From a virus, in the IMG/VR virus record IMGVR_UViG_3300015371_000139, positions 1 through 27,906 of that record: 27,906 nucleotides of DNA; one strand, given 5' to 3'. Below are positions 26,276 through 27,849 of this stretch, piece by piece; positions within the stretch are counted from its first letter, which is position 1; each line of letters opens with the position of its first letter. Under the pieces are notes generated by a model that saw nothing but the letters and a program-made list of their open reading frames with translations, made no database searches and was not told the origin of the DNA. The position numbers and the translations under genes are program-made.

Positions 26276-26932
26276 ATGCGGGACAACCGGATCACCCTCA
26301 CGGGCAAAATGCCCATGATTCAACACTGCGACAACATCGACTGGGCCGACGAAATGGACGCCTGGCGAAATGATCCAGCCAATAAGAGATTTTCGAAACC
26401 CGGCGACGATCGCACGCCGGCCTTTCGCTGGCTCGGATGCCTGTATCACGACGGCGAACGGATCGCGGTACCAAGTGACAACCTGTCGCGGACGTTAATG
26501 GAAGGCGGCGCGCAAGTACTCGTACCGGGCGGCCGGAGTGGAAAAACGTTCAAGGCGCAAACACAAAGCGGAATGCTGGTCGAGGGTACACACTGGCCGC
26601 TACTCGTCGACGGCAAACCGATCCCCGTCAAGCCGATCCTGGCGCTCCAAAAAGAAACGAATTTCGCCGCGCACAAAAAGGCCGTCGAGAAAGCCGGATT
26701 TGAACTGTTTGTGAAGCGAGTGAAGATCGGCCAAAGCAAAAACATTCGCGTGCGGCCGATGTTTTCCCGGTGGTCGACAACGGGGATCGTTCACGTGTGG
26801 GACGAGCAAATCACCGAGGAAGTACTGCGCCAAATCATTACGCATGCGGGGATGTACAAAGGCCTCGGCGACTGGCGGCCAGGCGGCAAAACGCCGGGAC
26901 CGTACGGCATGTTTACCGCGGTAGTCGAATGA
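26276..26932 (+). CDS. Conserved phage early protein of unknown function
   Basis: 218 residues. MRDNRITLTGKMPMIQHCDN opens with the I-T-(L/I)-x-G-x-x-P-(M/L)-(I/L) start seen in a large family of early phage proteins. Further family features are FRWLGCLYHDGERIAVPSDN, LSRTLMEGGAQVLVPGGRSG, VRPMFSRW and a final GGKTPGPYGMF. The N-terminal strand, central L-Y-H-D-G...P-x-x-N turn and R-P-x-F-x-x-W strand are typical. Members often neighbour ERF/RecT-type recombination genes; none is seen here. The stop at 26930-26932 is followed after two bases by the pentanucleotide array. Confidence 0.65.
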   Translation: MRDNRITLTGKMPMIQHCDNIDWADEMDAWRNDPANKRFSKPGDDRTPAFRWLGCLYHDGERIAVPSDNLSRTLMEGGAQVLVPGGRSGKTFKAQTQSGMLVEGTHWPLLVDGKPIPVKPILALQKETNFAAHKKAVEKAGFELFVKRVKIGQSKNIRVRPMFSRWSTTGIVHVWDEQITEEVLRQIITHAGMYKGLGDWRPGGKTPGPYGMFTAVVE

Positions 26933-26934
26933 GC

Positions 26935-27150
26935 GAGGCCGGGCATGGCTTTGCCTGGCGAGGCCCGGCGCGGCATGGCGCGGCGCGGCATGGCGCGGCG
27001 CGGCATGGTTCGGCAGGGCGAGGCCTGGCGCGGCCGGGCTCGGCCTGGCGAGGCCCGGCGCGGCATGGTTCGGCGCGGCTAGGCCTGGCACGGCGCGGCT
27101 CGGCGGGGCCGGGCGCGGCGTGGCACGGCGAGGCGAGGGGGCGTAGGCCC
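26935..27150 (+). repeat. NNGGC pentanucleotide array 1 with conserved 3' terminus
   Basis: From 26935 to 27134, 40 consecutive 5-base units keep phase with no insertion or deletion; 37 are exactly NNGGC (exceptions TTTGC once, ATGGT twice). The first two bases vary freely (GA, CG, AT, CT, CC, GC, TC, AG, TA, AC, GG, GT). The array ends in AGGCGAGGGGGCGTAGGCCC (27131-27150), followed by GGGAGG and the next gene's GTG. The block GGCGAGGCCCGGCGCGGC occurs at 26957-26974 and 27047-27064. All coding frames across it are Arg/Ala/Gly-rich shadows, so I read it as non-coding. Confidence 0.9.
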
Positions 27151-27166
27151 GGGACGGGAGGCAACA

Positions 27167-27655
27167 GTGCGAACAAAGATCGTGAAGAACCCGAGGACCG
27201 ATGTCGATGTCGAGCTCTTACGAAAGGTGTTTCCCGATCTCTTACCCGACGGTCGGGAGGTACTGCATAGCCAGATTGAGTCCGTACTTGGCTCGTCGCG
27301 CCTAACGTCGCGTTATAAGCGCGTCGTGACGAAATGGCGGCGCGGCCTCCTGCTCGAGCGGAGTGTGTGGCTCGATGGGATGCTCGCCGACGGCCGCGGG
27401 TTTGTCGCGCTGACGGCCGACGAAATGACGCGATTTGGCAATCGGGCCGTACGCGCGACAGGCCGCAAATTGCAACGGGCGATCGCCGTCGTCATGGCGG
27501 CCGACGAACACGAACTAAGCGAAAGCGCGCGACTCTGGCGCGGGAAATTGATCATGGCAATGGAGAAGATGACGGCGGATCAACGCGCGGCCTTGCGCGA
27601 CATTTCGAAGGCGCTTCGACCGATCAAGCAACTGCCGCGCGCCGGCGGCGAGTAG
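27167..27655 (+). CDS. Conserved winged-helix-like early phage protein
   Basis: 162 residues from GTG 27167 behind GGGAGG. The N-terminal half, EVLHSQIESVLGSSRLTSRY then KRVVTKWRRGLLLERSVWLD, GMLADGRGFVALTADEMTRF, matches a common siphovirus pattern: a helix near G-x-x-(I/L)-x-H-x-x-(I/L)-E, a basic helix Y-x-x-(V/I)-V-x-x-W-R, and a wing G-x-G-(F/Y)-x-(A/V)-L. The second half is helical (RAVRATGRKLQRAIAVVMAA). Such proteins are probably DNA-binding regulators; the target is unknown. It lies exactly between the two pentanucleotide arrays, which makes autoregulation through them worth testing. Confidence 0.65.
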   Translation: MRTKIVKNPRTDVDVELLRKVFPDLLPDGREVLHSQIESVLGSSRLTSRYKRVVTKWRRGLLLERSVWLDGMLADGRGFVALTADEMTRFGNRAVRATGRKLQRAIAVVMAADEHELSESARLWRGKLIMAMEKMTADQRAALRDISKALRPIKQLPRAGGE

Positions 27656-27660
27656 TGAAC

Positions 27661-27849
27661 GTGGCGAGGCCTGGCGTGGCAAGGCACGGCTAGGCAGGGC
27701 AGAGCTCGGCGAGGCCCGGCGCGGCTAGGGTTAGGCGTGGCTTGGCGAGGCTTGGGCCTGGCGAGGCTTGGCGCGGCATGGCAAGGCGCGGCTTGGCGAG
27801 GCCCGGCCAGGCAGGGGCCTGGCAAGGCAAGGCGAGGGGGCGTAGGCCC
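27661..27849 (+). repeat. NNGGC pentanucleotide array 2 with the same 3' terminus
   Basis: It begins five bases after the TAG of the preceding gene. From 27661 to 27833 there are 34 units; 31 are five bases long and three are six (TAGGGT, TTGGGC, AGGGGC). Nearly all five-base units are exactly NNGGC. It ends with AGGCGAGGGGGCGTAGGCCC (27830-27849), identical to array 1, and contains the shared block GGCGAGGCCCGGCGCGGC at 27708-27725. Variable pairs include AA and TT, which are rare or absent in array 1, so the two arrays are related but not recent copies. Confidence 0.9.

Follow-up and report, generated by a model that had tools for sequence, protein, structure and literature searches.

The 27,906-nt stretch of viral DNA analysed here (positions 1 to 27,906 of IMG/VR record IMGVR_UViG_3300015371_000139; hereafter, the window) almost certainly contains a VIPR locus, one with a vap1 gene and hence type II-like, in the genome of a tailed, temperate phage. 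The locus is assigned to VIPR because the profile of the gene upstream of its two repeat arrays matches the Vipr protein of Escherichia phage SUSP1 and the gene lying between the two is a homologue of vap1 from that phage. By analogy with the SUSP1 system, from which their function is carried over, the two arrays, with GGC recurring every five bases, are best read as VIPR guide RNAs. They sit at the end of a contig that also carries genes for a tape measure protein and an integrase.

VIPR (Viral Interference Programmable Repeat) was reported in a preprint of April/June 2026 (PMC13142463). There it is presented as phage-borne, as related to CRISPR and as its probable forerunner, comprising a RAMP homologue, Vipr, with a minimal RRM core and a G-loop, and vrRNAs of 9–16 GGY/NN units with an invariable, structured 3′ tail. 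The GGY triplets are the scaffold bound by Vipr, the NN dinucleotides pair with double-stranded DNA, each unit skipping one base, and the system silences competing phages. The range of 9–16 repeats is given for SUSP1 and P. fulva and is not stated as universal; staggered overlapping arrays are among the architectures described. The preliminary description of the window arrays, made from the sequence without database searches, could name no described function for such elements. This holds for the older literature and has been overtaken by the preprint.

The genes of the locus

All elements lie on the + strand in the order vipr, vrRNA array 1, vap1, vrRNA array 2, and the reading frames of both genes are intact. 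The present analysis itself shows how the locus is laid out, what its genes are homologous to and how Vipr folds, as well as the co-occurrence of arrays with Vipr and the covariation of the tails. The vipr gene (26,276–26,932) encodes a 218-aa RAMP-fold protein of PHROG 4652, a family annotated as being of unknown function. Its family profile (A1) matches PDB entry 36pp, "SUSP1 Vipr protein", with E=2.9e-43, and direct tblastn of the window protein against phage SUSP1 gives 25% identity (E=1e-7). The AlphaFold2 model has a pLDDT of 94, and its best Foldseek matches in the PDB are Csm3/Cas7 subunits (E=3.8e-5). A conserved C-terminal glycine-rich loop (AG...GxGDxRP...GRF) in the family suggests a RAMP as well. 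Both the fold and a glycine-rich loop near the C-terminus are thus shared with the RAMPs of class 1 CRISPR systems (Csm3/Cas7), whereas the RNA is a pentanucleotide array instead of a spacer-repeat one. Sequence comparison of the family with Pfam returned no match to Cas7, the window genes scanned against Pfam and PHROGs included no Cas match, and the arrays lack the repeat-spacer layout of class 1 CRISPR-Cas.

The second gene (27,167–27,655) encodes a 162-aa vap1-like protein. Its family profile, built without SUSP1, matches SUSP1 vap1 with E=7.7e-20. The AlphaFold2 model (pLDDT 92) has a helix-strand layout like that of a winged helix, and Foldseek gives weak, no more than suggestive matches to winged-helix regulators (E of at least 0.015).

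The resemblance to the type II VIPR of SUSP1 (PMC13142463, PDB 36pp) covers several features: both are phage-borne and have a RAMP-homologous Vipr and, following it in the gene order, a vap1 from one shared family, together with intergenic GGY/NN RNA whose NN positions are hypervariable and whose 3′ tail is structured. The two differ in several respects. The Vipr proteins are merely 25% identical; the window repeats, in a GC-rich genome, are almost all GGC, versus GGT in SUSP1; an array separates vipr from vap1, whereas in SUSP1 vap1 directly follows vipr; and the window tail is a short hairpin with no pseudoknot shown, unlike the SUSP1 tail. The arrays, of 40 and about 34 units (the latter with phase slips) and one tail each, also exceed the 9–16 repeats per vrRNA of SUSP1. 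Because the preprint describes other architectures, such as staggered overlapping arrays, this repeat count is a variant feature and not an exclusion from VIPR. The type II-like label follows from the presence of vap1, the type boundaries in PMC13142463 being drawn on a tree.

Arrays and Vipr across viral genomes

The preliminary description had proposed a pattern search across phage genomes and had raised the worry of an assembly artefact. A scan of IMG/VR with (GGCNN)x8 returned at least 120 contig stretches; the pattern is therefore neither such an artefact nor private to the window contig. These loci were selected for carrying arrays only. When all their genes were clustered by BLAST, a single family dominated: it occurs in 82 of about 118 array loci, usually adjoining the array (the runner-up occurs in 17 loci), and the window vipr belongs to it. 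With an HMM, Vipr was recognised at 86 of 121 array loci, on the array strand in 84 of the 86, at a median distance of 18 nt from the array and never more than 1 kb away. Many of the other 35 loci are cut at a contig end and the rest are unexplained. Several of those with no recognisable Vipr (L001, L009, L026, L032, L043, L075 and others) lie away from contig ends, and these may hold divergent Vipr types. The route to VIPR was here independent and started from sequence alone, arrays first and protein second, and the link between array, Vipr, vap1 and tail is confirmed from loci chosen on arrays alone.

Among the matches listed, the arrays are intergenic, and 135 of the 157 with both neighbours called run co-directionally with both; in 45 of 46 multi-array loci every array lies on one strand. 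Over 3614 units, NN is hypervariable (N2 near uniform, N1 purine-rich), GG is best kept, and where a unit departs from GGC it most often reads GGT, as "GGY" requires. A coding function was dismissed: the arrays are intergenic, with a phase of five, and contain shadow ORFs only, as the preliminary description had held. It had also pointed to such ORFs in phage annotations, and one is indeed found in Mycobacterium phage Donkeykong, where gp48 is a spurious ORF overlying the array.

One could envision that intergenic arrays serve as recombination linkers for the swapping of early phage genes, since they lie between co-directional genes and a degenerate repeat would be usable in any register. That they track one protein family and not gene boundaries generally, and that each array in the window's clade ends in a structured tail, makes this reading very improbable. 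A similar verdict applies to the run of two-tetrad RNA or DNA G-quadruplexes, acting as a structural switch, that the preliminary description had favoured from the sequence pattern: GG every five bases on the sense strand does fit GGN3GG. A quadruplex, however, needs no pyrimidine at position 3 (the preliminary description had itself remarked that the C was superfluous), no covarying tail hairpin and no RAMP-fold neighbour, such as is found in 86 loci. In standard folding, much of the array pairs with the GCC that a C at N1 creates, and the purine bias at N1 is not specific to quadruplexes. As the arrays adjoin a RAMP-fold family, are intergenic and co-directional, and match vrRNAs in GGY, NN and tail, the quadruplex is hardly credible and is not needed as the main function. 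The other thought in that description, that a protein might read the arrays, is likely correct.

Pentanucleotide RNA is also read by TRAP, a multimer that recognises (G/U)AGNN, with a fixed triplet, two free spacer bases and a 5-nt period. The protein in the window differs in being a RAMP and not a TRAP ring, and the free bases of the window arrays would carry information. The RAMP fold of the neighbouring gene removed both a TRAP-type ring and a type III toxin-antitoxin system from consideration.

Phase slips over all array loci comprise 125 of 4 nt versus 8 of 6 nt. The 4-nt slip, typically GGCAGGC, resembles a marker of the boundaries between staggered vrRNAs rather than a random indel. Tail-like GGAACG or GGACC blocks recur every 6–12 units inside the arrays of L115, L109 and L151, which are apparently staggered overlapping vrRNAs. 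Cluster F mycobacteriophages (Cheoctovirus; many isolates on M. smegmatis) carry VIPR too: Vipr is gp49 in Donkeykong and gp51 in Saal (E about 1e-51), and staggered arrays with GGCAGGC 4-nt slips are present in both, of 66 units in Donkeykong (L141, 3925–4268) and 48 units in Saal (L142, 3995–4239).

In five VIPR loci, tRNA-like minihelices flank or separate the vrRNA arrays (locus coordinates: L019, 6885–7220, − strand; L107, 4722–4992, −; L093, 1494–1811, +; L004, 3785–3825, +; L003, 6368–6406, +). They measure about 40 nt and consist of an acceptor stem stacked on a T-arm (TTCGANY loop), 11–13 bp in total, with covarying stems and no D or anticodon arm. Eleven lie no further than 150 nt from an array (87 kb of sequence), versus five in the other 2.65 Mb, which suggests that they may mark vrRNA processing by RNase P or RNase Z. 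The main text of PMC13142463 names hammerhead-interspersed arrays, not tRNA-like minihelices.

The common 3′ end

Both window arrays end in the same 20-mer, AGGCGAGGGGGCGTAGGCCC, at 27,131–27,150 and 27,830–27,849. It has no other copy in the window, and shuffles give an expectation of 0. This common end, already noticed in the preliminary description, is made up of the final repeat unit and the vrRNA tail. The two tails (27,135–27,150 and 27,834–27,849, + strand) are identical and consist of GAGG followed by the hairpin GGGC-GTAG-GCCC. Throughout the window's clade the tail is RNGG joined directly to a hairpin of 4–5 bp with a loop of mostly 3–6 nt. Of 24 tails from relatives, 21 have this layout; in 200 shuffles the mean was 5.6 and the maximum 12. 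Eleven different complementary arm pairs occur among the clade tails: GGGC/GCCC in the window and, elsewhere, GGTC/GACC, GGCT/AGCC, GGCC/GGCC, GGCTC/GAGCC, GCTGA/TCAGC, GCTGC/GCAGC, GCGC/GCGC, GTGC/GCAC, GCTA/TAGC and GTTC/GAAC. Since single tails folded alone were no more stable than shuffles, it is this covariation that supports the hairpin. Rfam yielded nothing that reached gathering scores, and ARAGORN found no tRNA. The earlier view that the arrays have a defined 3′ boundary and are not products of simple slippage is upheld. Its expectation that relatives would share both pattern and terminus is borne out for the arrays and for the RNGG-plus-hairpin layout; the stem sequences themselves vary.

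Length and growth of the arrays

Array 1 (26,935–27,134, + strand) begins 2 nt past the stop codon, TGA, of the 218-aa gene. Its 40 NNGGC units keep phase with no indel; 37 of them are exact and three substituted (TGC, GGT, GGT). GGC, described at first as fixed, is nearly but not strictly so. From the frequency of GGC in the window (4.5% of positions), the chance of 37 in-phase triplets out of 40 is about 1e-46. Array 2 (27,661–27,833, + strand), which likewise follows a stop codon as first described, starting 5 nt past the TAG of the 162-aa gene, does have about 34 units. Its supposed phasing did not hold throughout, being broken several times by 6-nt spacings (GGCTTGGGC, GGCAGGGGC, GGCTAGGGTTAGGC), and its longest in-phase runs are of 13 and 12 units.

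In-phase runs over all loci have a median of 11 units (interquartile range 9–14) among the matches listed, in agreement with the published 9–16; array 1 falls near the 99th percentile and is exceeded only by runs in L007 (140), L072 (58) and L034 (50, 50). It is about three times the usual length, with 40 units versus the median of 11 in the surveyed loci and the 9–16 of PMC13142463. By far the longest array among these matches is that of L007 (6301–7008), with about 140 in-phase units beside a Vipr gene.

The five nearest relatives, 45–71% identical, include four IMG/VR loci (L143, L144, L145 and L147) in which classic vrRNAs of 9–17 units surround vipr. Like the window, these four and a region of Pseudorhodoferax sp. 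Leaf274 (L148) have RNGG-plus-hairpin tails, a gene of the vap1 family and a Vipr, 58–71% identical to that of the window. Unlike it, they carry several short arrays of 7–17 units, some upstream of vipr. The comparison of array lengths among close relatives that was proposed at the outset places a 40-unit array in the window and in none of these relatives.

Within array 1, matches between units are in excess at lags of 6, 12 and 18 units (p of 0.003–0.008 each, the best of 29 lags tried), and a five-unit block is repeated. This six-unit higher-order repeat suggests growth by duplication, which is the simplest account. A clear internal block duplication is also seen in L072, within a run of about 60 units.

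How such an array would be used allows more than one answer. Tentatively, array 1 may be transcribed and loaded as one vrRNA of 40 units, or its transcript, with the single tail, may be a precursor that is cut into several guides that overlap; the DNA-reading complex would then span about 120 bp, some three times the described VIPR footprint, and long arrays, also those of L007, L072 and L034, would represent a distinct VIPR architecture growing by block duplication. Alternatively, and this too we consider possible but doubtful, the locus descends from VIPR and array 1 is expanded and decaying, stretched by duplication, with only the tail-proximal units, or none, serving as guide. The 6-, 12- and 18-unit periodicity with its repeated block, the duplication in L072 and the phase-breaking indels of array 2 are in keeping with decay. 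Against it, 37 of the 40 units of array 1 are exact and none carries an indel, two of the three departures are the allowed GGT, and the frames of vipr and vap1 are intact.

Proposed mechanism and search for targets

Under the VIPR reading, RNA binding, the 1-nt skip code and repression are borrowed from PMC13142463, and the mechanism of the window copy would follow by homology. RAMP-fold Vipr subunits would coat the array RNA in a row, each occupying one GGY, with the NN pairs held outward; these pairs would read double-stranded DNA as xNNxNN..., skipping one base per unit, and the 3′ tail hairpin would cap the RNA. If the window copy works like SUSP1 VIPR, with the 40-unit array used whole or trimmed, the complex would bind and silence genes of competing phages or satellites, with vap1 helping.

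The searches brought up no natural target. The window's own genome contained no one-base-skip target above shuffles, and 1016 ten-unit queries against 2.15 Mb of fetched loci (both strands) showed no excess over skips of 0, 2 or 3 or over reversed order. In IMG/VR, exact 9-unit patterns from two stretches of array 1 had no match each, and one from array 2 had two, chance-like and with no extension. One guide of the Pseudorhodoferax relative matched nothing in its own genome; across 401 genomes it had a single match, with 1 mismatch, and the reversed control had one as well. NN composition fits codon positions 1–2 best, a fit confounded by the N1 purine bias; read in this way, array 1 gives a coiled-coil-like peptide (LEPAIAAIAAIS...) with no tblastn match in phages. 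Because the searches covered small pools or required exact patterns, the absence of targets is no evidence against the skip code, though it does count, with the length of array 1 and the 35 array loci lacking a recognisable Vipr, against the VIPR reading as a whole.

Significance

The finding is real and important, yet VIPR itself was already known. Its interest lies in the system to which the window belongs, which was reported only recently, is guided by RNA through a code that is noncontiguous, and is claimed to stand at the root of CRISPR. The analysis adds a GC-rich VIPR clade with a clearly covarying tail, and it brings up the role of arrays of 40 or more units.
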